Source: Collinsella sp. AM17-1
Lineage (GTDB): Bacteria; Actinomycetota; Coriobacteriia; Coriobacteriales; Coriobacteriaceae
Assembly: GCF_003470665.1 (NCBI RefSeq)
Contig: NZ_QRJZ01000002.1
Span: 114,901 to 178,900, forward strand
Length of the DNA: 64,000 nt
Direction: 5' to 3'
In this document: piece by piece, positions 45,847 to 63,518 of the stretch
Numbering within the stretch: the stretch's first letter is position 1
How the letters are laid out: each line of letters begins with the position of its first letter
Translations under genes and position numbers: made by a program
Notes under the pieces: generated by a model
What the model saw: the letters and a program-made list of their open reading frames with translations, nothing else
Database searches by the model: none
What the model was told of the DNA's origin: nothing

Positions 45847-45922
45847 GGGGGCGTAGCTCAGCTGGGAGAGCGCTTGACTGGCAGTCAAGAGGTCAGGGGT
45901 TCGATCCCCCTCGTCTCCACCA
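45847..45922 (+). tRNA. tRNA-Ala (GGC anticodon), CCA encoded
   Basis: The cloverleaf is complete: acceptor GGGGGCG/CGTCTCC with G-U pairs, anticodon stem CTTGA/TCAAG with loop CTGGCAG, T-arm GGTTCGATCC. CCA is encoded at 45920-45922. An identical tRNA body recurs at 63,170. Confidence 0.97.
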
Positions 45923-46131: not shown

Positions 46132-47055
46132 CTAATTCCAGTTCATGCCGAACTTGCGCGATCCCAATACGTCCTTCCAATGGCTCTCGCGCTCGCACAC
46201 TTCGGCAGCGGTCATCTTTGTGTCGCATACCTCAAGGATGGAGTAGGTAAAGTTCTCGATGATGTACCCAGCCCCGTGCTCAGCCATGATGGCCTTGAAT
46301 GCCTTGTTGCCGCCCGTAGGGTCCTCGGGGTTGGCATAGGCGCTCCAACGCTGCCAGATACCCAGGTCCGCGCCTGCGTCCTTCTTGCTGTCGCCCGATG
46401 CCGAGCCCACGTAGAGCTTTCCCGTCGCGGTGTCGGTGATGCAGTTGACGCCCTTCACGTTGTCCAACGCCCAGTACCAGTCGGAGCCCACGCTAGCGAT
46501 GATGGCCTGCAGTGTCTTGTGGTCGATGCGAACGTACTTGTAGCCGGGGAAGGGGCTCACGTTGCCCAGGCTCATCGAGTACTCGTATACAACGGGTTCA
46601 AAGTCTCGCATCGTGTTCTCGTAGAACTTGTTGTAGATATCGCGTCCGATCGGCTTCTTCAGCTTGATGATAAGACGCTTGATGTAGGCCTCGTAGTCAG
46701 GAAGAAGCGTCAGCTTGTAGCCCACGCCGCCCAGCACCTCGGGCACCACCTTCTCCACTTTGTGCATGCCGCCGAAGATGAAGTACTCTGGCCCGTAGGT
46801 GTAGTACTGGGCGAACGAGAGCAGGTACTCTGCATGGTTGAGGTTGTTGTTCGCCTGCTCCGTCGCGCTCCTCCACGCGTTCATTTCGTACCATCGCGAG
46901 CCGCTATCGGTCCTCTCGGTGGTCGAGGTATCTTTTAGCAGCAGGTCGTACGCGCGTAGGCTCACGTCGCCAGCGTTCATGTTGAACTTAACCTTGGTCT
47001 TCTCGGGGTGTACCACCGGCATCAAGTCCCTGAGTGTTATCACGGGATTTCCCAT
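46132..47055 (-). CDS. GIY-YIG nuclease-like protein
   Basis: The 307-residue protein has a C-terminal GIY-YIG-type domain (about residues 200-307). The paired strands are GVNCITDTATGKLYVGSASG, followed by the arginine helix (LGIWQRWSAYANP), and the end reads ERESHWKDVLGSRKFGMNWN with the catalytic Glu region. The N-terminal 190 residues are a separate domain with no motif that I can name. The first strand is VNCIT and not the exact GIY. Such proteins occur as stand-alone nucleases of unknown target. The following fragment of an ADP-ribosylglycohydrolase suggests a former two-gene module. Confidence 0.75.
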   Translation of the reverse strand: MGNPVITLRDLMPVVHPEKTKVKFNMNAGDVSLRAYDLLLKDTSTTERTDSGSRWYEMNAWRSATEQANNNLNHAEYLLSFAQYYTYGPEYFIFGGMHKVEKVVPEVLGGVGYKLTLLPDYEAYIKRLIIKLKKPIGRDIYNKFYENTMRDFEPVVYEYSMSLGNVSPFPGYKYVRIDHKTLQAIIASVGSDWYWALDNVKGVNCITDTATGKLYVGSASGDSKKDAGADLGIWQRWSAYANPEDPTGGNKAFKAIMAEHGAGYIIENFTYSILEVCDTKMTAAEVCERESHWKDVLGSRKFGMNWN

Positions 47056-47252
47056 GCTTATTCCGCCTTTTCGATTCGAAAGCTTGTAGATCGAATCATA
47101 TCACTCGCTTTCCAGGCGAATATTAGCGCTCAGCTAACCATCCTGTTCCTGATGCTTTCCTCTCGATCGGGGATGCCCATTGGTGGGCGCACCGAAGGAG
47201 GACGCCTACGCCGTCGCGGCCGCAGAGCGCCGACCCCGCTGAGCTCGAGCGC

Positions 47253-47924
47253 GTGAACGCCGACGGCTCCAAGGGCATCCCCGAGCTCGCGCTGGGCACC
47301 ACCGAGGCCGAGGCCGTCAAGCTCTTCGCCAACACCTACCTGGCGCTGCGCGTGGCCTACTTCAACGAGCTCGACACCTACTGCGAGGTTCGAGGCCTCA
47401 ACACGCGCGACGTCATCGACGGCGTGTGCCTGGAGCCGCGCATCGGCAGTCGCTACAACAACCCCAGCTTCGGCTACGGCGGCTACTGCCTGCCCAAGGA
47501 CACCAAGCAGCTGCTGGCCAACTACAGGGACGTGCCGTATAACCTGATCGAGGCCATCGTGGAGGCCAACCGCACCCGCAAGGACTTCGTCGCCGACGAG
47601 GTGCTGCAGATGGTGTGGGACCGCGTGTACGAGGGCAAGCCGAAGCCGGTCGTGGGCGTCTACCGCCTGACGATGAAGTCCAACTCTGATAACTTCCGCG
47701 CGAGCTCCATCCAGGGCGTCATGAAGCGCGTGAAGGCCAAGGGCGTGCCCGTGGTGGTCTACGAGCCCACGCTGGACGCGCCGGAGTTCTTCGGGTCCGA
47801 GGTGACCCACGAGCTGGAGGCCTTCAAGGCCGACTGCGACGTGATCGTCGCCAACCGCTGGAGCGACGAGCTCGCGGACGTGGCGGACAAGGTGTACACA
47901 AGGGATCTGTTTAAGCGGGATTAG
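47253..47924 (+). pseudogene. UDP-glucose/UDP-sugar 6-dehydrogenase, C-terminal two thirds
   Basis: The 223 codons match the middle and C-terminal domains of UDP-glucose dehydrogenases: STEAEA-like [28 protein letters not shown]. Then comes the catalytic cysteine motif [18 protein letters not shown] and the UDP-binding end VVVYEPTLD. The N-terminal NAD-binding Rossmann domain (about 150-170 residues) is absent upstream, where the sequence ends abruptly in unrelated bases near 47,170. There is no ribosome binding site at the GTG. It is most likely a truncated remnant of a capsule gene. Confidence 0.8.
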
Positions 47925-47968
47925 GGGAGAGCGGTTGCCTGCCTGTAGCCGGGAAATCATTGAGCGCT

Positions 47969-48000
47969 GGGGTGGTATCGACGCTTGTCGATACCACCCC
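47969..48000 (+). terminator. Strong terminator-like hairpin
   Basis: GGGGTGGTATCGAC and GTCGATACCACCCC form a perfect 14-base stem with a four-base loop, followed by CTATTT. It lies 45 bases after the dehydrogenase remnant and shields the AT-rich cassette that follows. Confidence 0.75.
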
Positions 48001-48153
48001 CTATTTCGAATTACATATGCCAAGGGAGAAGCGGTAGACAGAATTTGAACAACTAGCAACGGGCTATATAGCAGCACTGTTCATCGCATTTTTACTTCGA
48101 TCATTATGTCCGCGTGAATGGATAGACTAGAGAGCGGATTCTACTAAAGCAAG

Positions 48154-50160
48154 GTGGGGATCATTTTGGAAGAAATTAATCACTCTCGAGTCTCCTGTTA
48201 TGGACCCAATGACTATGGAACGTATCGCTCAATCGAAAGATGCAAAGAGATATTAATGGATGGCGAAAGCCATCCAATTGAAACAATTAACGATGCCATT
48301 GAGATCGGTGAAATTAAGGAGGTAATTGGATGCGTACCCGAGGCCTTCGATGATATGAGTCTCGAAATTAACCATATTCTAAAAAGGCTATATGGCAAAG
48401 CTTCTTCCTTTGCACATTCAGCATTAACAAATAATGCACTTTTAGATGTTTATGAAAGTGTCGAATGGCAATATATCGACAGGTTTTGGAATCTGGCCTC
48501 CTCAACTAAAGCATATGAAAAAATAAATTCCGATGAACTTGAAGAATTACTGAGTCGGCACTCGCTCTGCATCTCAAATGTAATGTCCCACTATGGATTA
48601 GTACAGAAGTTTGACCAACATATCAGAGCTGTCCTATCAAAAAATATTGACGCTGCAGTGAGCATAATTGTCGGGAACTTTGGCGCAGAGGTACGCTCTA
48701 AAGAGATGATATATCTACCGCCGTCATTGACCGGAAGTGATATCGATGAAATTGTTCTAAGATATCTTTCAGAGACTAATCCAAATCTTAATTATGTCCA
48801 GGTTCTCATGAACTGGCCCAGTGCAGCAGCAAAAGACTATAGTCCGTCAATCGAAGTTCGCATAAAGGCCAAAAGGCGCTATGAGGAATTAAGTAAACAG
48901 CTATTTGATGAGACTGGGAGTATTGAATACGGTATTGAAGCTTCGATTAGCGGTAACCAAATTGCATGCAAAGATTCCTATGTGGATGGAAATACTCTAA
49001 AGACTTTCTTCGGTGAAGAATGGCTAAGTCGCTACCTTGATCATCCAACCATAATGAACAACTGCGCGTACGTCTTTGATTATTTAGACGAGCGGGGGCT
49101 TCTGACTTGCCCCGCCCACGAACACGATGAATCTACCCTGATGAAAACCTTTGGTATGCGTGCCAAGGACGAATACGACAACAACATATTCTTTAAAATG
49201 CGTCAGGATCTTCTACTAGAAGAAACGGCCCTATATGCAAAGCTTCTTGAAAGAAATGGTAGACGCTTGGAAGATGCAATTGAATGGACATATAACGTCT
49301 ATTTTGCTAAAGAACTCGGGATTGGGGGTTTCTCGATCTCTTTACCAGCAACCGGATGCTCGTGGCTTGATAAATGCAAGGCCATGGGCCCGGAGCTTGA
49401 ACGTGCACTAAAGGCGTACTCGCTATATTCAAAAATGCATGTAATCGATCCTGATTATTTTCGATTTGAAAACTTCAAGCTCTTCTCTGAATTTAAATCA
49501 TTCTATGCAAATAAATACGTAATTAGGGGTGATCGCTATGACGAAGCAGCGAAACCCTTGTTTTGGGATCAATCATTGCTTGCCTTCGCATCCCGCATCA
49601 AAAGCCCAGAAGACAACCTTTGGGACCTGCTGCATAAGCATGTGGTCCATGTCGACGATTACGACGGAGATTACCGATCGGCAATAGAATCGCTAATCAA
49701 CAAGGGCTTTTTAGCTGAATCTGATAAAGACGGGCGTTTATTGCCTTCCAAAAAAGCCCATTATTTAAAGAAGATTTGGGATTCGAGCGCATACCCACTT
49801 TGGCGTTGTTCGAAAGCAACTATTGATGGAGCTCACGAGCTGGTAAAGCAAGGATATCTGAAATATAGCGACGCCTTATTTTCACCAGACGAAGCATCTT
49901 ACTTGAACTATATGTTCAATAATGCGATCCATTCAAATGCTTTAGCCCTTCGAAACTCTTACGACCATGGCAACTCACCTGTTGACGACCCCAATTCCAG
50001 CCAGTTCGCAAGAGACTACTATTTGTTTCTCACGCTGCTTATCGAAATCACTTTAAAGATCAGCGAAGAGCTTATCCGTTACACCGGGAATGGAGGAGAC
50101 TTAGAGTTAATTGATTGGCCGATGTATGGGAAGCACCTTGCTGGTTGCCGCAAACGGTAA
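48154..50160 (+). CDS. Large unknown protein with a C-terminal HEPN-type R-N-x3-H motif
   Basis: I do not recognise the full-length family. The 668-residue protein is mostly alpha-helical in appearance and acidic, and its gene is clearly AT-richer than the core genes. Near the C-terminus ALALRNSYDHGNSP (Arg600, His605) fits the HEPN RNase motif R-[N/H/D]-x3-H. It sits in a helical context followed by DYYLFLTLLIEITLKISEEL, as in DUF4209-like and abortive-infection HEPN proteins. Start choice is uncertain: GTG 48154 or TTG 48166 behind AAGGTGGGG. Two further AT-rich genes follow on the same strand. A defence role is inference. Confidence 0.6.
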   Translation: MGIILEEINHSRVSCYGPNDYGTYRSIERCKEILMDGESHPIETINDAIEIGEIKEVIGCVPEAFDDMSLEINHILKRLYGKASSFAHSALTNNALLDVYESVEWQYIDRFWNLASSTKAYEKINSDELEELLSRHSLCISNVMSHYGLVQKFDQHIRAVLSKNIDAAVSIIVGNFGAEVRSKEMIYLPPSLTGSDIDEIVLRYLSETNPNLNYVQVLMNWPSAAAKDYSPSIEVRIKAKRRYEELSKQLFDETGSIEYGIEASISGNQIACKDSYVDGNTLKTFFGEEWLSRYLDHPTIMNNCAYVFDYLDERGLLTCPAHEHDESTLMKTFGMRAKDEYDNNIFFKMRQDLLLEETALYAKLLERNGRRLEDAIEWTYNVYFAKELGIGGFSISLPATGCSWLDKCKAMGPELERALKAYSLYSKMHVIDPDYFRFENFKLFSEFKSFYANKYVIRGDRYDEAAKPLFWDQSLLAFASRIKSPEDNLWDLLHKHVVHVDDYDGDYRSAIESLINKGFLAESDKDGRLLPSKKAHYLKKIWDSSAYPLWRCSKATIDGAHELVKQGYLKYSDALFSPDEASYLNYMFNNAIHSNALALRNSYDHGNSPVDDPNSSQFARDYYLFLTLLIEITLKISEELIRYTGNGGDLELIDWPMYGKHLAGCRKR

Positions 50161-50205
50161 CGCTGCCCCTCAAAAGATTCTCTGTGAAGCTTAAAGGAGG
50201 TTTTA

Positions 50206-51294
50206 ATGAGCCCGAATACCAATAATAAGCAAGTTACGCATCATAACCATTTTGTACCACAGTTTTACTTACGTAATTGGTCTTCTAACGGCAATTCGCT
50301 ATGGGATTATAAGTTGGTTGTAGAAGATGATAGGGAGAAGACTTGGCGTACGACATCATTAAAGACGGCGTGCACTTGGAATGACCTATACACACAACGA
50401 ACCGCAGGGTCCGATGTCGACGATATCGAAAATTATTTTTGCGATGAATACGAGGCACCGGCATCCGCGATCCTAAGAAAGATCAGCTCTGGGGCGGCGC
50501 TCTCAAAGAATGACATTAATTGTCTGGTTGACTTCTGGCTGATTCAGCATTTTCGAACGCCTGCTTATTTGATAAAGAACGCCAAACTGACCGAAGAGGT
50601 ATTTGAGGAAATCACTAATCAAATACCAGATATCGTGTCGAAATATTTTTATGAAAAAGAGCTGGGGATTGCACACCCGGTTGCTCATAAGCCCGAGCAA
50701 TTTTATCCATTTCCCGTTCAACCAATTGAAGCCGATATCGATTTTGAGACGGGCACCATTACGTCTTCGATTGTATTGGGGCGAGCTAGTTTCCTTTCCT
50801 CGATTGCTTCTTTTGTTAACGGGAGCGTCGGCAACAGAGTTAGAAACTTTAATTGGACAATAGTTAGGCCGCCAAGGGAGCATTTCTTTCTCACATCTGA
50901 CAATCCCGCCATCGCTTTTGGGGCATATAAAGACAACAAAATAGAAGTAGATGGAATTGGGCTTGGTCGAAGGAATGTAACGTTGGTTCTCCCTCTAACC
51001 CCTGATGCTGCTCTATTTACTGAAGTTGGAGCTCTTCCGTTTGATATTCCGGAGCAGCTCAGCGTCAGGCAATGCGAACTAATTAACCAAGCAATATATA
51101 GGGGCGCTTATAGACATATCTTTTCTAAAAAGAAGATACCTAATATCAAGAGCAATTATCCACGGGTCATTAGCAGAGCCATTGTAGAGGAAGATCGAAA
51201 ACTGAGAGAAAACTGGGCATCGTCTCAAGCCGCCGCAGAGGAACAACACGAAGCATGGCTTGCTGCTAGAAATGGGACGCAAGGATCTGAATAG
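50206..51294 (+). CDS. DUF4238 family protein
   Basis: The 362-residue protein begins with THHNHFVPQFYLRNWS, the diagnostic N-terminus of DUF4238. It continues with YTQRTAGSDVDDIENYFCDEYE and later FFLTSDNPAIAF, other family stretches. The function of DUF4238 is unknown to me; members occur in accessory and defence-rich regions. AGGAGG stands six bases before the ATG. The gene starts 45 bases after the HEPN gene, and both are AT-rich, so they are likely co-transcribed. Confidence 0.82.
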   Translation: MSPNTNNKQVTHHNHFVPQFYLRNWSSNGNSLWDYKLVVEDDREKTWRTTSLKTACTWNDLYTQRTAGSDVDDIENYFCDEYEAPASAILRKISSGAALSKNDINCLVDFWLIQHFRTPAYLIKNAKLTEEVFEEITNQIPDIVSKYFYEKELGIAHPVAHKPEQFYPFPVQPIEADIDFETGTITSSIVLGRASFLSSIASFVNGSVGNRVRNFNWTIVRPPREHFFLTSDNPAIAFGAYKDNKIEVDGIGLGRRNVTLVLPLTPDAALFTEVGALPFDIPEQLSVRQCELINQAIYRGAYRHIFSKKKIPNIKSNYPRVISRAIVEEDRKLRENWASSQAAAEEQHEAWLAARNGTQGSE

Positions 51295-51312
51295 CAACAG
51301 TCAATCAAGCGT

Positions 51313-52095
51313 GTGCTTCATTCCATTGCGTCAAGCACACGGGAAAAGAGCGAGTTTCATCAAATGGTCTACGAATCATGTTATTGGAAAGATGACTTAA
51401 GGTCATACGCAAAAGAGTTAAGTGACTTTTCCACATGCACTACTCTGGAAGACGAGTACCGTGATTATCGACTGGAAAAGGCTCTTCTATTGTCCGCCTT
51501 TACCGTTCGCTTGCTCTTGGATGCAAATAAGTTAAGCGACCGTATTGGCTCGCTTAACTTAAAAGTCGACTTTTATCCTGCAAAGATAGAAGCTCAGAAA
51601 AATGTTTCACCCTTGGATAAACGCTTTATCGACGAACGATACTTCGACTTAGCTAGCCCCACGTCCTCGTCCATTTCTTTACGACGGCTCACGAACCAGC
51701 TCATTCATTCCGCTGTTGTTGTGGCGTTTTCATACGATAATGCAAATCGTGCGCTTGGCTTTTTTGTTGTATCCGATAACGACTATGAAAAGCGATTGTG
51801 CTATTGCAGCCTGAAGGAGTGGTCAAGCGTGGTAGAAGCCGTAGCGGATGATGACGTTATTTATGCTCTGATACATAAGGATCCGAAGACGGGGAAATGC
51901 ATAACCGTAAAGCTCGCCGCAAGCGATTTAATAGATATAGATGCCACTCTGAGCCGTCTTAAATCCAAAGGTCTCAGCCCGGATATCCTTGATGCCATTC
52001 GCAAAAACCTAACGCGCATGGCTACGGAGGAATCTGCTCGTCCTGACAGCGCTGCCGATCTAAACGATATGACTCCAGAAAGCCTCGATGCGTGA
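51313..52095 (+). CDS. Hypothetical protein, third gene of the AT-rich cassette
   Basis: I recognise no family. The frame opens at GTG 51313 but that codon lies inside a hairpin (CGTGTGCTT/AAGCACACG); ATG 51364 (MVYESCYWKDD) is a sensible alternative giving about 243 residues. The sequence is helical at the N-terminus with a hydrophobic patch (LLLSAFTVRLLLDANKL). It has a central beta-like part (VVVAFSYDNANRALGFFVVSD) and an acidic Ser-rich tail. It begins 18 bases after the DUF4238 gene, so it is probably part of the same unit. Confidence 0.6.
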   Translation: MLHSIASSTREKSEFHQMVYESCYWKDDLRSYAKELSDFSTCTTLEDEYRDYRLEKALLLSAFTVRLLLDANKLSDRIGSLNLKVDFYPAKIEAQKNVSPLDKRFIDERYFDLASPTSSSISLRRLTNQLIHSAVVVAFSYDNANRALGFFVVSDNDYEKRLCYCSLKEWSSVVEAVADDDVIYALIHKDPKTGKCITVKLAASDLIDIDATLSRLKSKGLSPDILDAIRKNLTRMATEESARPDSAADLNDMTPESLDA

Positions 52096-52294
52096 GGCGG
52101 CTCAACTTGCAATCTGACTCAGCATCATTCGACCCCTCCTTTCACCGACTGGCAAAACGATTTACACCTAATTTTGGGAATCGATCGCAGGGTTTAACCT
52201 TGCCCGTAGTCCGATCTCGCTAAACTAATAACTGCTGCTACCAGGGCATTTTCTGGTGCATATTCTATTGGCTCCTGCGAAGATCGGAGCTGTT

Positions 52295-53413
52295 ATGTTT
52301 ACTGTCGCGTTCCACACTAGCCGTCACTACATCCTGTTTACCGCCATGGCCTGCCTATGCGTTTTGCTGGGCGGGCCTTCTTATGCCGCGGGTGCGGAGA
52401 GCCTCATCATTGCGGGCGCGACGTACTACGAGCCGGGCGTCTCAGGCCCCGGTTGGGCTTGGACCGATGCCGACCACCTGGAGCTCAGCGGCTTTTCTGG
52501 CGAGGCCATCGGCGCCGATGGCGACCTGGTGGTGACCCTGACCGGGCAAAATTCCGTAAAGGAGATGCAAACGTCCATCGTGGACATTTCGCAGTGCGGT
52601 CTGGAGGTGTGGGGCAACCTGACGCTCCGCGGCACCGGGTCGCTGACGGCCACGGGATCGCAGTGCGGGATTCACGCGTTTCAGGCATTGGTGGTGGACG
52701 GCTGCACCGTCAATGCCCAGGCCGACGGTGCCGGCCTTGAGGACGAGGTCGTGGCCGGCCTGGTCGCGGGGCGTCTTGTCGTTCGCGGCGGCGGGCGCGT
52801 TGTTGCCGCGGGCGCGGGCTCCGGAGCGGGCGTGCGCGCTTACGGCGCGTACCTACTAGACGAGGATCCCGGCGATGGCGTGCCCTTCGGGACGCTTGCC
52901 GTCGATGCCTCGTGGCTAGATGCGACCGGCGCCGATGGCGGTGTTGGCTGCCTGGCCGGATCGCTTACGTCCGCGCGCTTTGTGGCGCCCGCCGGTGGGG
53001 CCTTTGGGGCCAGAGGCGTGTTGGATGCCGGCGGGGCTGTGGCCACGCATGTGGTGATCGAGCCCGAGGGTGCTGCTGGCCCGGCAGGGGAGACCGACGC
53101 GCGCGATGTGCCGAGTGATGGCCGCGAGCCTGCCTCCAGCGCCGATCCTGCTGCGGGAGAGTCTGATTCGGGAACGGTAGCGCGCCCAGAGGTGAAGCCT
53201 GCGGCTGCGACAACAACGACCACTACGGTGACTAAGACTTCGGTTACCAAGACCGCTAAGCCTAAGGCCGCTAAGCCTAAGGCCGCTAAGCCTAAGGCCG
53301 CTTCCACGACAACCGCCTCGCTCCCCAAGACCGGCGACAACTGCTTGATCGTCGCCTCCGCGGCCCTTTTTCTACTTGGGACAGTGCTCCTCGTCACCGT
53401 ACGCCGCTGCTGA
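52295..53413 (+). CDS. LPXTG-type cell-wall anchored protein
   Basis: I start at ATG 52295 behind CGGAG. The 372-residue precursor has a signal peptide (HYILFTAMACLCVLLGG, cleavage near SYAAGA). A repetitive beta-solenoid-like body follows (LEVWGNLTLRGTGSLTATG, VVDGCTVNAQADG), as in carbohydrate-binding or adhesin proteins. Then come an Ala/Thr/Lys/Pro-rich stalk with three KPKAA units, the sortase motif LPKTGD, a hydrophobic segment (LIVASAALFLLGTVLLV) and the basic tail RRC. It should be displayed on the cell wall. GC is high, unlike its AT-rich neighbours. A decayed paralogue lies at 55.5-56.3 kb. Confidence 0.85.
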   Translation: MFTVAFHTSRHYILFTAMACLCVLLGGPSYAAGAESLIIAGATYYEPGVSGPGWAWTDADHLELSGFSGEAIGADGDLVVTLTGQNSVKEMQTSIVDISQCGLEVWGNLTLRGTGSLTATGSQCGIHAFQALVVDGCTVNAQADGAGLEDEVVAGLVAGRLVVRGGGRVVAAGAGSGAGVRAYGAYLLDEDPGDGVPFGTLAVDASWLDATGADGGVGCLAGSLTSARFVAPAGGAFGARGVLDAGGAVATHVVIEPEGAAGPAGETDARDVPSDGREPASSADPAAGESDSGTVARPEVKPAAATTTTTTVTKTSVTKTAKPKAAKPKAAKPKAASTTTASLPKTGDNCLIVASAALFLLGTVLLVTVRRC

Positions 53414-53426
53414 AACACTAATTTTT

Positions 53427-53549
53427 CGGAAGTGCGGGGAAAAGCAGAACCTGTCGACCGTAACCCGCTATTTATCAACAAAACCACAGGTCGCGAAAGC
53501 GTAAAACCGTGGGCTGGTCGGCAGATCTAGGTTTTATCCCGCACTTCCG
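53427..53549. repeat. 123-bp inverted-repeat element, copy 1
   Basis: The ends are inverted repeats CGGAAGTGCGGG and CCCGCACTTCCG. The interior shares the stretch GTCGGCAGATCT and other blocks with copy 2 at 59,273-59,391. Similarity continues downstream into a short frame at 53,622-53,741 (MIALADISFTISRV), a probable remnant. The rest of the 557-base gap to 53,970 holds no gene I can support. Confidence 0.7.
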
Positions 53550-53621
53550 GAATTGTCTCCATTAGAGGCCAACCAACAGTCGGCGATTGTATCTCATGCA
53601 GTCAGTTAGTTAAAATTGGCC

Positions 53622-53741
53622 ATGATTGCGCTTGCCGACATATCATTCACCATCTCACGCGTGCTACCTCGCTACGATATTCGCGAGGCTCATGATGATA
53701 TAGTTTCGACCAAAGCATCGTTTGGCTTGGGATGGATTTAG
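53622..53741 (+). pseudogene. Short remnant frame, MIALADI type
   Basis: A 39-codon frame opens MIALADISFTISRV. Its first 14 codons resemble MVTLADIASAFSSV at 59,466, in the same position relative to the repeat element. The rest does not match. It is most likely the decayed 5' end of a small gene. No function can be assigned. Confidence 0.4.
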
Positions 53742-53970
53742 TTCAGTTCCCGAATGAGGGCAGGCTCTTGGGACCGAGAAATATTTACTCCTGGGTTCAA
53801 GCCTTGCAACTGCCGGCGCATCGATACCTTTTGTTATGCCAAAGTGATACACACATAACGAAGAAAGCCCCTGCAGGAAACGCTTCCGCTACATTTTCGA
53901 ATATCTGTCCCAGCGAGCATCTATCATAGGATGAGATTACTGGGCAATAGCCATAAGGATTGGAACTGTT

Positions 53971-54474
53971 GTGACTATCTTCAGCTGGAACGACTTGAAT
54001 CCAACTGCTCGCGAATACATCTTGATGGCCAAAGATGTGCGTGATATGCAATATCGCAAACAATGGCCTACGCCTGGAGGTAAAACGCTAATCGAACTCG
54101 TTGCTAACGAGAATAAAGCCCTTAAGTTTTATCTTGATCTTACAGAGAATAAAAGAAGTTCATCCTTAATTCTTGGACTTTCCGCTGACAGAAAAAGCAC
54201 CATGCAGACACGCGTATCAGATCGTCCATTAATTCGTCTTGATTATAGTGATAATCCCGAGGTCCTTCGTCACAGAAATCCAGACGGATCGCTGATCCTT
54301 GGTACTCATGTCCATTTTGATATAGACGGATACGGCGCCAAATGGGCTTGTGGCATTCCAGGTCAAAATATTTCGAAACCTCTGAACGACGATTTTGCAT
54401 CACTCTTTTGGTCATTTCAGGAAACTTGTAATATTACAGACAAGCTTAAAGTAGAGCTATCTCTGGGGGTGTGA
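53971..54474 (+). CDS. DUF6978-like protein, first gene of a two-gene cassette
   Basis: The 167-residue protein starts at GTG 53971 with AAGGA upstream. It has RLDYSDNPEVLRHRNPDGS, then THVHFDIDGYGAKWACGIP. These fit my memory of the DUF6978 family, in which a histidine-rich strand and an Arg-Asp motif are conserved. The pairing of such genes with DUF1828 genes is known to me as a recurrent arrangement; I cannot verify it here. The product is cytoplasmic, without signal or membrane segments. The next gene starts two bases after its stop. Confidence 0.65.
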   Translation: MTIFSWNDLNPTAREYILMAKDVRDMQYRKQWPTPGGKTLIELVANENKALKFYLDLTENKRSSSLILGLSADRKSTMQTRVSDRPLIRLDYSDNPEVLRHRNPDGSLILGTHVHFDIDGYGAKWACGIPGQNISKPLNDDFASLFWSFQETCNITDKLKVELSLGV

Positions 54475-54475
54475 G

Positions 54476-55252
54476 ATGAATGTAGATCAGGCTCGAGGCT
54501 TTATCTGCGCATACGCCAAGTTCGTAGAGGCAAATATGGTCCCGGTCCAGCAAGGTAATGGCGTCTGCATCTCCACCCCCATGCTCAATCGAAACAACGA
54601 TTGCATGCGGGTTTATCTGGGTGATGACCCAGCAGGCGGCTATGTCATTTCTGATCTTGGTGAAACCATCAATGATCTTGAATTGTCTGGATTCTCCATG
54701 AAAGGACAGCGAATCGATAAGCTCAATTCGATTCTTTCTGGCTTTTCGGTAAAGGAAGAAAAAGGCGAACTGTGTATAACGGCTTCCGGATCTGACCTTC
54801 CTATGAAGATGAATATGCTTCTTCAGGCTATGGCCTCTGTTGATGATATGTTTTTGTTATCTCAAAGCAGTGTGAGAAACCTCTTCACTGAAGATGTCGG
54901 CAATTGGCTGCTTGATAATGAAATCCCTTATGTTCCTGGCCCGTCTTTCCAGGGCCGATCCGGACTTTCGTTTAAATTTGACTATGCAATTGGTAAAAAC
55001 AAGAGAAGACCCATGCGCCTTATTAAAACGGTAAATAATCCTGGTAAGCAAGGCATTCAAAATGCATTATTTGGATGGGCAGACATTAAGTCGGCACGCA
55101 ACGATTGCGAAGGAGTCGTTTTTCTCAACTCCACCAACACTAAAGATGGCGTTGTCTCACCCGAGTCTATCGAAGCTTGCAAAAACTACGGACTTACTCC
55201 AATCATTTGGGGCGTCGATCAAGACTCCTATGTTCCCATGCTCGCTGCATAG
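54476..55252 (+). CDS. DUF1828/DUF1829 domain protein
   Basis: The 258-residue protein has GVCISTPMLNRNNDCMRVYL and GGYVISDLGETINDLELSG in its N-terminal third. These are the marks of DUF1828. The C-terminal part (about 130-250) with VVFLNSTNTKDGVV fits DUF1829. Families of this kind are found in phage- and defence-linked loci, sometimes as toxin-antitoxin-like pairs. AT-rich composition and the two-base gap to the preceding gene support a transferred two-gene unit. Confidence 0.75.
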   Translation: MNVDQARGFICAYAKFVEANMVPVQQGNGVCISTPMLNRNNDCMRVYLGDDPAGGYVISDLGETINDLELSGFSMKGQRIDKLNSILSGFSVKEEKGELCITASGSDLPMKMNMLLQAMASVDDMFLLSQSSVRNLFTEDVGNWLLDNEIPYVPGPSFQGRSGLSFKFDYAIGKNKRRPMRLIKTVNNPGKQGIQNALFGWADIKSARNDCEGVVFLNSTNTKDGVVSPESIEACKNYGLTPIIWGVDQDSYVPMLAA

Positions 55253-55499: not shown

Positions 55500-56313
55500 T
55501 TAACCTGCGCAGCTGAGGTTAATTCGCGTTTTTCCTGCCGGAAGCATACTACGTGCCGGGCGTGTCGGGCCCCGGATGGGCCTGGACCGATGCCGACCAC
55601 CTGGTGTTTCACGGCTACACAGGTGAGGTCATCGGCGCAGATGGCGACATGGTGCTGACGTTTACCGGGCAAAACTCCGTGAAATAGTCGCATGCGACCG
55701 ATGCGGTCATCTTGCTATGCGACATGGAAGTGTGGGGCAACCAAGTACTTCACGGTACCGGGGCCCTGACGGCAACGAGCCCCCAGTGCATGATAACGTT
55801 TCGCAGGCGTTCGCGTTGGACGTTGCACCGTCGATGCCTCGTGGCTGGATACGACCGGTGCCGATGGCAGCGTTGCGTGCACGGGCGGCTCGCTTGTGTC
55901 TGCGCGGTTTGTGGCGCCTTCCGGCGGGGTCTTTGGTGCTGAGGTGGGTGGATGCTGCCGGGGCCGTGGCCGCGCATGTGGTGATTGGGCCCGTTGTGGC
56001 CACGCCACCGGCTGTGTGGAGACCGATGGATGCGACGCGTGGGTGGCAGGGCGGGCTAGCCTGCTGGCGGTGCCGGTCATGTTGCAGGGCAACCCGGTGC
56101 TGGGTAGTCGACGGACCTCGTAGCGAAGCCCACGACCGCAGCGCCCAAGACAATCACAACGACCAGCCCCACGGTGGCCACGTCGTCCATGCCCAAGACT
56201 GCCACCGGGACCACTTCAGCTCTTCTCAAAACCAGCGACAACAACTGGATTACTGCTACCTTTACACTGCTTTTCTGGGAATAGTGTTTCTAGGTGCAGC
56301 ATATTATTGCTGA
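55500..56313 (+). pseudogene. Decayed paralogue of the LPXTG surface protein
   Basis: Fragments in several frames match the intact gene at 52,295: YVPGVSGPGWAWTDADHLV, GEVIGADGDMVLTFTGQNSVK followed by a stop, DMEVWGNQVLHGTGALTAT, then after a deletion VSARFVAPSGGVFGAE. Near the end LLKTSDNNW stands where LPKTGDN stood, so the sortase motif is lost (Pro to Leu, Gly to Ser). It contains at least one in-frame stop and two frameshifts. No start or signal peptide remains. Confidence 0.85.
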
Positions 56314-56751
56314 AACACTTTTCTGAATTTTCTCGCTTAGGCACCAACAAGACCGTGTAATGGTACCGCCAAAATTGCGCTTAGTCCCCGGTGAATTATT
56401 TTACCTGCGATCCGCCCCACGGAGCCGCCGTATGTCGACCTTGCATATGTCGACCTTGACCGCGTTGAGCGCGATCCCGCCCATGATTGCATACGTATTG
56501 ATTCCGCCGCCGGGTCTTGAGTTCCACTCCCTCTTTTTTAACTATCTGTAAAAGACCGATGAAGAGATGCCTCACCTCGGCTTCATTAGCTCAAAAAGCA
56601 TTTACCGTCTAATAGTTGCGAATGATGTTCAATTATCAATGCTGAAGGCACCTTCGGTCTTAGGGGTCATTCCTGTATTCAGGGTTCCTGATTTGACACA
56701 GTTGCCTAATTTTGAATTTGCATCAAATGGATGACTGGTAAAATACCCTTC
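56314..56751. other. Non-coding stretch upstream of the retron
   Basis: I see no gene I can support. TATGTCGACCTTG occurs twice in tandem at 56,430-56,456. Toward the right end, TTGCAT (56718-56723) and TAAAAT (56739-56744) could drive the retron RNA, since the expected start point falls at its first base; the spacing of 15 bases is short. Confidence 0.4.
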
Positions 56752-56859
56752 ATAGCCGGTTCGAATTAGCGTTTGCGCATCGCAATCGGATATGTGTTGT
56801 TTGCACATTATATTCTGCTACGTGTCTATCAAGTACGACTCTACGGAGGAACCGGCTAT
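56752..56859 (+). ncRNA. Predicted retron msr-msd RNA
   Basis: The ends ATAGCCGGTTC (56752-56762) and GAACCGGCTAT (56849-56859) form a perfect 11-base a1/a2 pair. Right after a1 comes TTAGCG (56766-56771), the same branching-guanosine context as in retron Eco1. Two small stem-loops follow: TTGCG-CAT-CGCAA (56773-56785) and ATGTG-TTGTTTG-CACAT (56792-56808), the latter with the TTGTTT loop also seen in Eco1 msr. The msd part (about 56810-56848) is short and only weakly paired. It ends 19 bases before the reverse transcriptase start. Confidence 0.75.
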
Positions 56860-56878
56860 CAACTTTAAGGAAAATCTG

Positions 56879-58504
56879 ATGCTCTACGAGCTGCAGTCGA
56901 AGACCGATCTGGCATTGTTTCTTGGCCTGTCTATAGAAAAGCTTGATTTCTTTGTCAATCCATCCTCCATGTATGACCTATACAGAAATAAAGTGATTCC
57001 AAAAAGAAATGGCGGCTATCGAGAGCTATTAATCCCAAGATCTGATTTAAAAAAGGTTCAACGAATTATCGCTAAAGAGCTAGAAAAAAGCTACAACCCT
57101 TTGCCTTGTGTGCACGGTTTTGTAAAGGGTCGGTCAATACAAACAAATGCTGAGACCCATATTGGCTCACAAGTAATTGCTGGCGTTGATATTAAGGATT
57201 TCTTCCCTTCAATCTCATCTAAACGGGTATATGGCCTTCTTGTTTCGAAGAAGTTAGGTCTCACCCCTGAAGTCGCATTCTGCATTTCTAGACTTGTCGC
57301 CACACCAAAAGGGCTCCCTCAGGGAGCTCCCTCATCCCCTTTAATTTCGAACATGATTTGCCTTGGCATGGACAAACAGCTTATGCATCTATCGCATGAG
57401 TATCATTATCAATACACGCGATATGCCGATGACCTAACGTTCTCTTTTAAAAGCTCTTTCTATTTCTATCGACACTTTTGCTCAGAGGAAAAGCTCAGGT
57501 TGCCCAACAAAGTACGAAACGCGATCACTGACTTCCATGGAACCGAGTCATTTGAGATCAACGAAGATAAATCGTTTTACAGTTGCAGTTTCTCAAGACA
57601 ACTAGTCACGGGCGTTGTCTGTAACCAAAAGACAAATATAAAGCGCGAGCAATATCGGCGACTCCGCTCAACGCTCCACCGACTAAGCATTAGCGACATT
57701 GAAGGCGCGATGGGCTGCTATTACGGTAAATCCATCGCTAAACTCACCGACGCAGAGAGAGGGATGTTTCAAGAAGCTCTTCGAGGAAGTCTAAATTTTT
57801 ATAAGTCTCTTATTAAGAATCCCTGGACATCGGGGCCGCTCCTGCGTTTAGGCAGCCTCTACAATAAAACGAAACCAGAAGATACGCCTGTTTTCCCAGT
57901 CGCACTTCAGCAAGACTCGCTTTTGTATCTAGAAGGAGAGGATGACAAAGAAACCCCGTTTGAGGGTTTAGGGTTTTACCTAATCGGCTACGGCCTTGTG
58001 ACGGCGTGGCACGTGATATGCGATGCCGTTTCTCATGACATGGAAAGAAGGGAAATAAAAGTATCCAGCTCAGATAAGACCCCGCTTGCTAAATTTAAAT
58101 TTAGCAAATCGATCGTTCAAGACAACAAGCGCGATGCTGTAATACTACGAGAAGTTCCACAAGAAATCTTAAGGAAGATCCCCAAGCTTCCAGCAGCCAT
58201 GGATTTGCCCGTAAAGGGGGATAAGATCTCCGCTTATCAACAGCATTTTTCTGAATCTAGATTCAGCCTTGAATTGCACAGTGGGGATTTGCTCAGGGTC
58301 GGAGATCCAAGCGAAGAGGGCACACTTTGTTATACGAATTGCTCATTTCAGCATGGAATGAGTGGTGGGCCAGTGTTTAATAACTTGGGTCAGGTCATTG
58401 GCATAGTACATACTGCAACTGAGCAGGGAAAACTTGGTTCTTTCCTTCCTTTAAGAGATTGTATCCGCTCATCCGATGTTTATGGAGAGTGGCAGCTCTT
58501 CTAA
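56879..58504 (+). CDS. Retron reverse transcriptase fused to a trypsin-like serine protease
   Basis: I start at ATG 56879 behind AAGGA; upstream ATGs lie inside the predicted msr hairpin. The 541-residue protein has the RT domain in residues 1 to about 320. It shows RELLIPRSDLKKVQRII, GVDIKDFFPSIS, LPQGAPSSPLISN, the catalytic YTRYADDLTFS (YADD at 182-185) and the retron-like VTGVVCNQ. From about 350 there is a chymotrypsin-fold protease with His378 in GLVTAWHVICDA, Asp419 in KRDAVILRE and Ser495 in HGMSGGPVFN, plus GQVIGIVHTA. Retrons are anti-phage systems; the protease would be the effector. AT-rich, as expected for a mobile defence gene. Confidence 0.88.
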   Translation: MLYELQSKTDLALFLGLSIEKLDFFVNPSSMYDLYRNKVIPKRNGGYRELLIPRSDLKKVQRIIAKELEKSYNPLPCVHGFVKGRSIQTNAETHIGSQVIAGVDIKDFFPSISSKRVYGLLVSKKLGLTPEVAFCISRLVATPKGLPQGAPSSPLISNMICLGMDKQLMHLSHEYHYQYTRYADDLTFSFKSSFYFYRHFCSEEKLRLPNKVRNAITDFHGTESFEINEDKSFYSCSFSRQLVTGVVCNQKTNIKREQYRRLRSTLHRLSISDIEGAMGCYYGKSIAKLTDAERGMFQEALRGSLNFYKSLIKNPWTSGPLLRLGSLYNKTKPEDTPVFPVALQQDSLLYLEGEDDKETPFEGLGFYLIGYGLVTAWHVICDAVSHDMERREIKVSSSDKTPLAKFKFSKSIVQDNKRDAVILREVPQEILRKIPKLPAAMDLPVKGDKISAYQQHFSESRFSLELHSGDLLRVGDPSEEGTLCYTNCSFQHGMSGGPVFNNLGQVIGIVHTATEQGKLGSFLPLRDCIRSSDVYGEWQLF

Positions 58505-58816
58505 CTAGATTGTCATACATTCTGGCCCAAAACGCTCATCGCATCAGGCTTGAAACAAGGTGTCTGCTGCTTCTACTTAAACGGTGACAATCGGAAAAGT
58601 CATAAGGGGGTGCTGAGCTACATGCTGGAAAATGGGCCAGTCAGAAAGACATAGAGCGGCGGACTGTATAACATTTCGTTCTAGCACGACTCTGAGACCT
58701 ATGCGGGAAAGCATGAGGGGGCGGCTTCTCCGGAAAGATAAAGCTCGCTGTTTTCGTCTGCCTTGAGACGGGGGCTTTTTTATTTAAGGCAGCGTGCGGA
58801 GCGATGGGCTCTACTC

Positions 58817-59093
58817 ATGTTCATAGATCAGGCAACCATACTTGGGAGTTACGTTCAACTTGATTATGGCATTCAGTTTGCCTACTCAGAGATACGAGAA
58901 GACGGAGCCGTTCGCGTAGCTGTCGAACGCCCGGTTGAATTTGGTGTTTACCACGTTGAACCATCTGCCTGTGGTTAGAAGGTTTAACGTCGAAGGATTT
59001 ACTACTGATGACCTCAATTTCTTGACAGAATTTGTTAGATAAAATGCCCCGTTTATCTTTGAGCTCGCCGAACGGCAAAAGTCGGACCAAAGC
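58817..59093 (+). pseudogene. Broken small gene of unknown function
   Basis: From ATG 58817 the frame reads LDYGIQFAYSEIREDGAVRVAVERPVEF and stops at 58978. The continuation FNVEGFTTDDLNFLTEFVR lies in another frame from 58983, then a stop, then NAPFIFELAERQK. Joined, these make a plausible 85-90 residue protein. I do not recognise the family. The stretch before it (58,505-58,800) also has coding-like remains (DSETYAGKHEGAASP) with stops. A hairpin with T run at 58,755-58,777 could end the retron transcript. Confidence 0.55.
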
Positions 59094-61357: not shown

Positions 61358-61432
61358 GGGCGATTGGCTCAGGGGTAGAGCATATCCTTCACACGGATGG
61401 GGTCACAAGTTCGAATCTTGTATCGCCCACCA
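61358..61432 (+). tRNA. tRNA-Val (CAC anticodon), CCA encoded
   Basis: Acceptor GGGCGAT/ATCGCCC is perfect. The anticodon arm has loop TTCACAC, giving CAC, and the T-arm is AAGTTCGAATCTT. CCA is encoded at 61430-61432. TTGGTA or TTCTTG near 61,305 with TATGAT at 61,327 are candidate promoter boxes. Confidence 0.95.
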
Positions 61433-61442
61433 TCAAAAGTGT

Positions 61443-61475
61443 AGGTCAGAGGTGTTAAGCCTCTGGCCTTTTTCT
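61443..61475 (+). terminator. Terminator after tRNA-Val
   Basis: AGGTCAGAGG and CCTCTGGCCT pair with one G-U around a seven-base loop, followed by TTTTTCT. The following stretch to 61,873 holds the tandem pair GTGACACCAAA (61490 and 61502) but no gene I can support. Confidence 0.85.
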
Positions 61476-61873
61476 TTATGACAACATGGGTGACACCAAA
61501 AGTGACACCAAATTTTTGATTTTTATTAAAGTGGATTCCCGTTTTTTTGATCGTAAACCCTTCATAGTTCCTACATATTGAATAAAATTTCCTTTCGCTG
61601 GCTAACTTTAAGTGACGTCATTGAGCATTTTGAAAATAGTTCGCGCGCTCTTTCAATGAATTCTTTGCATGATTCATACGCAAATGTGGAGACAGGGACC
61701 ACACGCCCAGAGCGTCTTCCAGCGGATTTCTATCACACGACGATTTTTCGGCGGATCTCGTCAAGCATTTGGTCAGCATTTGGTTTGCTTCCAGTGCTTA
61801 CCCGCATGATGTACAGCTAGATAATCGGGCCCGTAAGCTACATGGCATACTCCCAAAGCTAGGGGAGGTCCAC

Positions 61874-62515
61874 ATGGACGAGATCGTCTGCGCAAATACC
61901 GCATTCCGTTACTGGCGCTGCCCGCCTCAGGTGCGCGACCTCTACCCGCGCTTGCCCAATTCCGAAGACGGCTGGCGAGCTCTATCCCAAGCCCCTTTCG
62001 TAACCGACGTCCTCAAGACTCCGATTATTTCCACGACGGAGCCCGGTGGCGTTAACTACCATTCGGGATTACAGACAACAATCCATTGTGGAGACGCTTC
62101 TGGGGTGGACAGTACTCTGAAAACAGCGATGGGCTTTAGGGTAACCAATCCGCTTGCAACGTTGTTTACCATGGCGCGCTTTGTGTCTCAAACCGATCTC
62201 GTCCTTGTCATGTACGAGTTCTGTGGGTGGTTTTCTGTCTTTGAGCCCACCGCCGCAGCCGAAGTAGAACTGAGCAAGGCCGATGACGCCGCTCAAGATT
62301 CCTCGACCGAATCTCTCTTTGAACTAGATGAGAGCCAAGACGAGGCGCAATGGAGACGCGTTTATGCGCGCGTAAAAGTTAAAGAGCAGGTAAATGCAAA
62401 GGGAACAAACGTCCAAAAGAAGACGAAAGAGGTCACGAAGCTCAAAGGCACATCGCTCTGGATGAGAAAGCCGCTTATCGAACTGCACGAACTTCATGAG
62501 TACGCCAGGAGATGA
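61874..62515 (+). pseudogene. N-terminal part of a split nuclease-like protein
   Basis: The ATG at 61874 follows a strong GGGGAGG site. The 213 codons open MDEIVCANTAFRYWRCPPQV, an N-terminus I associate with Coriobacteriia proteins that carry a C-terminal restriction-endonuclease-like fold. The frame ends at ELHEYARR and the next frame begins in the ATGA overlap with the expected continuation. Thus one ancestral gene (about 385 codons) has probably been split by a frameshift near 62,500. Whether both halves are still made is unknown. Confidence 0.55.
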
Positions 62516-63030
62516 AAAGCCGTAAGTGGGGTGCTAAGTTCTATAACGCTGCGCGGATGGTTACGGGTATAGCGGCCTCCCCGCTAGAAGTAGCGGGAAT
62601 TCTACTGCTGTCGCTTCCTCGCTCCCGCGGCGGTGCCGGCTTTCGGAATGTCTTCGTCAACGATTTTACGCCGCTTACTGCATCGGCCCAGAGCATTGCG
62701 GGGCAAAAAGTCTGCTACGGGGATATCGTGATCGTGAATCCGAACATAATGAAAGCTGGCATATTGGAGATTCAGGGAGAGGTTATCCATGGTTCAGGCG
62801 CCGTGCTGGACCACGATGCCAAACGCATGACGGCGCTACAAAGTATGGGGTATGACGTCTTTTTGGTTACCCACGACATGCTTAATGATGCTGCACAGCT
62901 TGATGCGATCGTGCGAAGCCTTTGTTCACGCTTGAGTTTGCGCTATAGGTGCAAAACAAAGGTTCAAAGGTCAGCGGAAACGGAGCTACGGGCCAACGTC
63001 CTGTGCAATTGGCTGGAAATCGGTCGCTAG
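62512..63030 (+). pseudogene. C-terminal part of the split nuclease-like protein
   Basis: The 172 codons contain ASPLEVAGILLLSLPRSRGG, then VCYGDIVIVNPNIMKAGILEIQGE, then RMTALQSMGYDVFLVTHDML. The order acidic strand, E-x-Q strand, then a hydrophobic strand before T-H recalls the PD-(D/E)xK-like fold (DUF559-type), but the match is loose. It overlaps the preceding frame as ATGA. There is no separate ribosome binding site beyond the coding region of the first half. Confidence 0.5.
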
Positions 63031-63106
63031 ACAGCCGTTTTTCCGCTTTATGGCGCTTTGGGTTGGCTGTCCGCGACGCCGCGGGACTCCGGCGCCCGCG
63101 CCCCCG

Positions 63107-63163
63107 GAAAGTTTTTCCAAAATTGTCCTTGCATCGCCGTCCGAGTTCCCGTATAGTACTTCT
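63107..63163 (+). repeat. 57-bp promoter/leader repeat, copy 1
   Basis: This stretch from GAAAGTTTTTCC to TAGTACTTCT recurs without mismatch at 63,944-64,000, where the window ends. It contains the promoter boxes of the second tRNA-Ala. Confidence 0.9.
63129..63157 (+). promoter_or_regulatory. Promoter of the second tRNA-Ala
   Basis: TTGCAT (63129-63134) and TATAGT (63152-63157) are 17 bases apart, the same arrangement as upstream of the first copy at 45,805. Confidence 0.75.
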
Positions 63164-63169
63164 TCGCAC

Positions 63170-63242
63170 GGGGGCGTAGCTCAGCTGGGAGAGCGCTTGA
63201 CTGGCAGTCAAGAGGTCAGGGGTTCGATCCCCCTCGTCTCCA
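63170..63242 (+). tRNA. tRNA-Ala (GGC anticodon), second copy, CCA not encoded
   Basis: The 73-base body is identical to that at 45,847. After the discriminator A the DNA reads CCC, so CCA is not encoded and must be added. The upstream and downstream flanks differ from the first copy apart from the promoter boxes. Confidence 0.96.
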
Positions 63243-63257
63243 CCCGAGCATTGAATG

Positions 63258-63286
63258 AGGCTCCAACGCAAGTTGGGGCCTTTTTT
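63258..63286 (+). terminator. Terminator after the second tRNA-Ala
   Basis: AGGCTCCAAC and GTTGGGGCCT pair around a four-base loop and are followed by a T run. Confidence 0.85.
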
Positions 63287-63346
63287 CATATAGGCACACA
63301 AGGTCAAAGGCGGCACCATGATCCTCCTGGTCGACAAGATCGTGCG

Positions 63347-63375
63347 TTGAACGGGTGCCGCGTGCATGGTAGTAT
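63347..63375 (+). promoter_or_regulatory. Possible promoter of the CAT-anticodon tRNA
   Basis: TTGAAC (63347-63352) and TAGTAT (63370-63375) are 17 bases apart. The leader to the tRNA would be about 60 bases, longer than for the tRNA-Ala genes, so the assignment is tentative. Confidence 0.4.
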
Positions 63376-63442
63376 TTCAGATCGTGGTGCAACGCATCTC
63401 TACATGGAAATCCTCCATTACCTTTGCAACCACTAATCACAA

Positions 63443-63518
63443 GGGCTCTTGGCGCAACGGTTAGCGCAGGGGACTCATAATCCCTGGGTTCTGGGTTCGA
63501 ATCCCGGAGGGCCCACCA
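63443..63518 (+). tRNA. tRNA with CAT anticodon (elongator Met, or Ile2 with lysidine), CCA encoded
   Basis: Acceptor GGGCTCT/AGGGCCC pairs with one G-U, anticodon stem GGGGA/TCCCT holds loop CTCATAA, and the T-arm is GGGTTCGAATCCC. The first acceptor pair is a normal G-C, so it is not an initiator tRNA. Met and lysidine-modified Ile cannot be told apart by the anticodon alone. Confidence 0.9.

Follow-up and report, generated by a model that had tools for sequence, protein, structure and literature searches.

A predicted type XI retron with a reverse transcriptase-protease fusion and a short template in Collinsella

Described relatives of the locus

Retrons in which a reverse transcriptase (RT) and a protease are joined in one polypeptide are already known, as an earlier note on the DNA studied here had stated: they are a named type, RT-Protease_XI (models PDLC02959 and PDLC02960), in a 2023 library of PADLOC. 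The designation 'type XI' is taken here from the PADLOC model name and reportedly goes back to Mestre 2020. The locus described below lies at 56752-58504 of a 64-kb stretch of Collinsella DNA, called the window. Like the described type, it has a single gene for a retron RT and a trypsin-like protease, and nearly the whole of the type XI model is covered. The Collinsella group differs in its lower model score compared with four other RT-proteases (L009 and L034-L036) and in its predicted template, which is about 15-25 nt shorter than those of eight Coriobacteriia relatives. The locus is likely to be an intact single-protein type XI retron with a template of about 51 nt, whose multicopy single-stranded DNA (msDNA) would restrain the protease until a phage triggers its release.

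Retron Eco2 (Ec67, RT-Toprim, type I-C) is closest to the window locus in RT fold and noncoding RNA (ncRNA), but its effector is a Toprim RNase, whereas that of the window is a protease. RT-TIR (PADLOC RT-TIR_XII), the second-best PADLOC type over the RT part, is also a single-gene fusion of an RT with an effector, in this case a TIR domain. Trypsin-like proteases fused to an antiviral core enzyme have been described in Avs, Lamassu, Hachiman and defence-associated RT (DRT) systems. These proteases are paired with a neighbouring metallo-β-lactamase-type pro-nuclease, which is activated by proteolysis (PMC12799240); no such gene is conserved at the window locus.

The reverse transcriptase-protease fusion

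Judged by its sequence, the 541-residue protein is an intact retron RT fused to a trypsin/HtrA-like protease. Its best PADLOC model is RT-Protease_XI (PDLC02959, 356.8 bits, residues 3-528). The catalytic YxDD of the RT is present as YADD (182-185) and is accompanied by QGAPSSP, starting at Q148, and by both retron-specific motifs, NAXXH of region X as NAETH (90-94) and VTG of region Y (243-245). The protease domain carries the triad His378, Asp419 and Ser495. A His-Asp-Ser triad is common to the HtrA-like and trypsin-like folds. The RT motif and the protease triad are invariant in all 58 aligned sequences, the window protein included. The fusion, the triad and the motifs YADD, QGAPSSP and VTG had been listed in the earlier note, and all were found, YADD and the triad at the positions given there.

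The nearest named relative is a locus of Collinsella aerofaciens (L001), 79% identical in protein over the full length, which bears out the Coriobacteriia host proposed before. A mechanically called open reading frame (ORF) of 570 residues from 56792 was dismissed, since L001 has an in-frame TAA three codons before the equivalent of 56879; the open frame of L001 begins at 7992. This TAA and the AAGGA site found in both the window and L001 argue for translation from 56879 and a product of 541 residues. The 570-residue type of start is also used in the proteins P0002, P0005 and P0007.

The RNA upstream of the gene

Relatives were sought in overlapping genome sets whose limits differed; matches came from 10 of 396 genomes of the class, 1 of 43 of the genus, 5 of 140 of one family and 10 of 395 of the order. 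From 11 distant loci (L003-L013), eight with 33-37% protein identity to the window were chosen for modelling the RNA, all of which encode RVT_1 and Trypsin_2 domains. A first MAFFT alignment of 11 RNAs was set aside because the 3' ends were misaligned, and L010 was left out of the model set because MAFFT misplaced it. Upstream of the RT, each of the eight loci has a long inverted repeat, then a G with a CTTT-like strand, then a hairpin that fits G[GA]ATGTG-loop-CGCAT[CT]C; GAAG (GATG in L013) stands immediately before the second repeat arm.

The consensus structure of the eight RNAs has 26 pairs and is 95.6% paired. Two-sided changes occur at 14 pairs and in 30 cells, compared with 8.0 and 11.4 in shuffled alignments, none of which (0/500) reached as high, and with at most 5 pairs and 6 cells in slid controls. 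Further pair types were no more numerous in these eight than in the shuffles, 395 of 500 being as high. In the a1/a2 helix, 10 of 13 pairs show two-sided changes and every cell is paired. Stem-loop 1 is also paired in all cells, with one of its eight pairs changed on both sides and six invariant, and a third helix is paired in 77.5% of cells. The earlier note had named a lack of covariation among homologues as grounds for giving up its proposal; the a1/a2 helix covaries and stem-loop 1 is kept.

A covariance model, R1, was built from these eight RT-protease RNAs, with the window excluded. Its top match in the 64-kb window is at 56751-56860 (20.4 bits, E 0.0018), and the runner-up scores 15.2 bits. 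Among L001, L009, L010 and L011, the best match is L001 7877-7980 (17.3 bits) and the next scores 11.1 bits, a weak match to the repeat of L010. The RT-protease locus L009 has no credible R1 match, and L011, in which the serine motif of the protease is absent, is matched partially, in stem-loop 1 alone (9.4 bits). The 110-nt RNAs of the window and L001 are 89% identical, compared with 61% identity at third codon positions of the gene. L001 is the sole close relative of the ncRNA at the DNA level (L002 is the same match); P0002-P0010 are known as proteins. As far as comparison of sequences can tell, the upstream RNA is a real retron RNA.

The 11-bp inverted repeat, described earlier as the a1/a2 pair, is perfect. 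Resampling the window 20 times with a first-order Markov model gave 11-bp repeats with a span of 60-200 nt at 3.95 per 64 kb, and at 0.45 if AGC was also required within 12 nt of the first arm. These frequencies make such a repeat unlikely to lie by chance within 130 bp of a retron RT. The real window, however, has 74 overlapping seed pairs per strand, many belonging to a small number of longer repeats, so the repeat alone is no proof and the covariance-model match weighs more.

The search with known retron RNA models suggested in the earlier note came out negative: at gathering scores nothing in the window matches a retron RNA of Rfam 15, and 56600-56950 has no match even with E<=5. A literature search, which left most subscription journals and the 2020 classification paper outside, turned up no work on the RNA or the protease of type XI and no experimental study of an RT-protease retron. 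Given these two results, the RNA described here may be new.

Branch point and template

R1 also matches RNAs of Ec67-family plasmid loci, at L033 220-352 (32.2 bits) and L032 231-373 (20.7 bits), and weakly those of L031 (11.0 bits) and L037 (10.3 bits). L032, L033 and L037 are annotated as Ec67 family, and L031 as RT-Toprim_I-C by PADLOC. These relationships suggest that several single-protein retron types share one RNA family. Because R1 matches Ec67-type RNAs and the Eco2 RNA has been seen by cryo-electron microscopy (cryo-EM), Eco2 is the best anatomical guide. In Eco2, the branch is at rG15 beside the inverted repeat and is followed by a four-nucleotide single strand, a single msr stem-loop (rG20-rU42), nine single-stranded nucleotides (rG43-rU51) and the template; the msd is 67 nt long. 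Applied to the E. coli Ec67-family locus L037, the same rule yields 67 nt, the published Eco2 length, and it yields 83 and 73 nt for L032 and L033, respectively.

In all 14 loci of this RNA family (the window, L001, the eight Coriobacteriia, L031, L032, L033 and L037), a1 is directly followed by G. Outside the family, the best automatic repeats of L034, L036 and L038 lack a following G. By homology with Eco2, G56763 is probably the branch guanosine of the window RNA. Transfer of the Eco2 anatomy predicts a template of 51 nt in both the window and L001, compared with 66-76 nt in the eight Coriobacteriia loci. The a1-a2 distance is 86 nt in the window, 99-109 nt in the eight, and 103-117 nt in L031, L032, L033 and L037. 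The spacing from the sequence HIIFCYVSI to the RT is equal in P0002, P0003, P0004, P0005 and P0007, whose over-long frames cross this region. Together with L001, this indicates that a short template is characteristic of the Collinsella group. The predicted RT-DNA folds no better than shuffled sequences in the window (z 0.32) and L001 (0.76); in the eight relatives z ranges from -2.19 to 0.79. Since most relatives also fold no better than shuffles, weak pairing of the msd is not special to this locus. The msd had previously been called very short and weakly paired: it is indeed shorter than in the relatives, but a length of about 51 nt is more likely than about 40 nt, and the weak pairing is usual in the group.

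The Proteobacterial RT-proteases L034-L036 have upstream repeats with no clear match to R1, which indicates that the R1 type of RNA does not account for all of type XI. The sequence TTTAACTTTC recurs past the repeat in L035 and L036. As L009 and L034-L036 fit R1 poorly, type XI may comprise two kinds of RNA.

Seven bases separate a promoter-like site from a1, and transcription from it would start at about the first base of a1. It is the only such site in 56500-59000, where 3.7 are expected by chance, and is weak evidence alone; TAAAATA stands at an equal distance from a1 in L001.

Table 1. Positions of the retron features and of neighbouring defence-type genes in the window
Feature	Position	Strand	Basis
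Promoter-like site TTTGCA-16-TAAAAT, TG before second hexamer	56717..56744	+	consensus match
a1, 5' arm of inverted repeat	56752..56762	+	11/11 pairs with a2; homologous helix covaries in eight relatives
Predicted branch (priming) guanosine	G56763	+	G directly after a1; corresponds to Eco2 rG15
Rival branch guanosine	G56769	+	G of TTAGCG
msr stem-loop 1	56770..56788	+	matched by covariance model R1; hairpin paired in all cells of eight relatives
Possible stem-loop 2, weakly supported	56792..56808	+	predicted fold; L001 comparison
Predicted msd template, 51 nt	56798..56848	+	Eco2 anatomy transferred
Alternative msd template, 38 nt, if stem-loop 2 belongs to msr	56811..56848	+	
a2, 3' arm of inverted repeat	56849..56859	+	pairs with a1
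Shine-Dalgarno-like site AAGGA	56867..56871	+	sequence; present in L001 too
RT-protease fusion ORF, 541 residues	56879..58504	+	ATG at 56879, stop ends at 58504; frame uninterrupted
RT domain	residues ~1-335 of the 541-residue protein		
Trypsin_2/HtrA-like protease domain	residues ~345-535 of the 541-residue protein		
Terminator-like hairpin and T run	58750..58775	+	consensus match only
UzuA-like gene	46135-47055		
PDC-S56	48154-50160		
DUF4238-Pers	50206-51294		weak match
PDC-M24A/B pair	53971-55252		

Relationships of the reverse transcriptase

In RT trees the window clusters with L001, P0010 and P0017, all of them RT-proteases (support 100/98). Support is 100/97 in a second tree without seven rows of the first, L011 and L025-L030; apart from L011, these are TIGR04416 rows and long branches. 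Identity between the Collinsella group and the other aligned members is 27-35%. With L010 counted as an RT-protease, a single clade of 21 rows was not rejected by the approximately unbiased (AU) test (p-AU 0.073). The phylogeny called for in the earlier note placed the window RT among retron RTs, with five rows found by TIGR04416 standing apart; as all five are below the cut-off of that model, the tree contains no verified group II intron RT or RT of a diversity-generating retroelement (DGR).

The RT of L010 (1423-3054) is nested among those of the RT-proteases and has Pfam RVT_1 only, with no trypsin domain. Its best model is that of type XI (439 bits, RT part only), and its C-terminal part, which has no Pfam match, would be a different or uncharacterised effector. 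P0011 (458 residues) has an RT 86% identical to that of the window, followed by positions 123-238 of the 238 of DUF3825 and no protease. It looks like an effector swap, but only the second half of DUF3825 is present, so a junction from recombination or assembly is equally likely. In viral contigs, 17 stretches matched the search pattern and none encodes a relative by tblastn; the relatives in phage and plasmid records are all less than 60% identical.

Proposed mechanism and its alternatives

Synthesis of msDNA, restraint and release of the protease, its substrates and the resulting defence are envisaged as follows. One transcript starting at a1 would supply both the ncRNA and the mRNA. Binding of the RT to the ncRNA would rely on stem-loop 1 and the a1/a2 helix; the RT would prime at the 2'-OH of the guanosine next to a1 and copy about 51 nt of the msd, creating a branched RNA-DNA molecule. 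RT and msDNA would form a self-inhibited assembly like that of Eco2, in which the C-terminal protease is kept from its substrates. Cutting, unwinding or binding of the msDNA by a phage function would free the protease, and cleavage of host or phage proteins would then stop the infection. The Eco2 assembly is described as self-inhibitory, with phage DenB as the likely trigger; phages that escaped Eco2 had mutations in denB, a nuclease gene.

Several observations weigh against this picture. The restraint model is borrowed from Eco2, a relative with a different effector, and the modelled RT-DNA has no strong hairpin as an obvious target for sensing by a phage factor. Against R1 the window reaches a modest 20.4 bits, compared to 15.2 for the next match, and its RNA lacks the third helix of the model. 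R1, moreover, is not specific to type XI, as two RT-Toprim RNAs score as high or higher. The type XI score of the window protein, 356.8 bits, is well below the 554-662 bits of L009 and L034-L036 and marks it as a divergent member. Finally, a single clade of the 20 RT-protease rows without L010, a group redefined after the tree was seen, was rejected (p-AU 0.006, with a log-likelihood lower by 31.1). Together with the nested position of L010, this rejection points to an exchange of the C-terminal effector; it casts doubt on whether type XI is a natural group, but not on the membership of the window locus.

The same retron might have another anatomy, in which the G of TTAGCG (G56769) is the priming site, the msr has two stem-loops and the msd is about 38 nt long. 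TTAGCG does start three bases past the first arm of the repeat, as was noticed earlier, and AGC in the msr is the classical priming context (PMC6868368). Stem-loop 2 forms in the predicted fold, and when the window is compared with L001 by eye, one of its pairs shows a two-sided change, one becomes G-U and one is broken. The consensus structure of the eight relatives has no counterpart of stem-loop 2, and none of these eight RNAs has AGC within 8 nt after a1, whereas the G next to a1 is present in all 14 loci of the RNA family. The RNA is, besides, related to the Ec67 type, and Eco2 has its branch guanosine beside the repeat and a single msr hairpin. This anatomy is regarded as unlikely; G56763 is favoured over G56769, and the relatives back stem-loop 1 alone as an apparent msr hairpin. 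Of the two msr stem-loops announced in the earlier note the first is thus retained, and its TTAGCG is present without being the favoured branch site. Even less room is left for a DGR or group II intron RT joined to a protease by chance, which is considered extremely improbable: the group II intron model TIGR04416 matches weakly, with 62.9 bits and a cut-off of 300, whereas PADLOC retron RT models reach 357 bits and NCBIfam retron models 202-231 bits, the latter under their own cut-offs. The NAXXH and VTG motifs, the retron-type RNA upstream and the grouping in the tree argue the same way, in keeping with the retron assignment made before.

Two further alternatives accept the retron and change the role of its protease. 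Rather than kill by itself, the protease might activate a partner proenzyme, as in the nuclease-protease pairs mentioned above. In those systems the nuclease is adjacent, whereas in 12 loci compared here, over up to 17.6 kb each, the RT gene alone is common to all and no other family is shared by more than two. Pfam scans of 17 of the ORFs in 30954-61115, the RT-protease among them, found no metallo-β-lactamase-type pro-nuclease, and a partner of this kind is judged quite improbable. It is slightly less probable still that the RT makes DNA only upon infection and that this product activates the protease instead of restraining it. DRT2 reverse transcribes its own RNA on infection, and nothing in the present data supports constitutive msDNA; the RT fold and the ncRNA, on the other hand, are closest to Eco2, which is self-inhibited with its msDNA in place, and DRT models score far below the retron models on the window RT.

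Restraint of the protease by msDNA, the preferred reading, leads to a broader proposal. Single-protein retrons may share an RNA family and an RT-msDNA sensor that carries an exchangeable effector, the Collinsella system being a version armed with a protease and having an unusually short template; loss of its msDNA would free a serine protease that acts alone without a partner gene. This proposal is tentative, the balance tipping slightly against it. If the protease is indeed released on loss of msDNA, a retron sensor can drive proteolysis, and effectors have been swapped on a common RT and RNA. Type XI becomes testable, since a covarying RNA can be found beside the gene and its branch point and template are predicted.

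Genomic surroundings

The window retron sits among defence-type genes, which occupy 46135-55252 (Table 1). The neighbourhood of L001 contains different ones, namely PDC-M37, LmuB-like, AbiL-like and PDC-M12. A trypsin domain is found in 11 of the 12 loci, L010 being the exception; its assignment in L001 rests on the 79% full-length identity to the window protein.

The stretch 52256-53413 is predicted to encode a surface protein, whose C-terminal anchor of LPKTG type was recognised by eye. Downstream, a decayed second copy of it, in two frames, occupies about 55547-55940 (identity 65% over 83 residues and 71% over 45). The defence stretch is flanked by tRNA genes, with Ala at 45847-45922 on one side and Val, Ala and Met in 61358-63518 on the other. 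In L001, a transposase-like frame, named by eye, lies downstream of the retron at 9869-10399.
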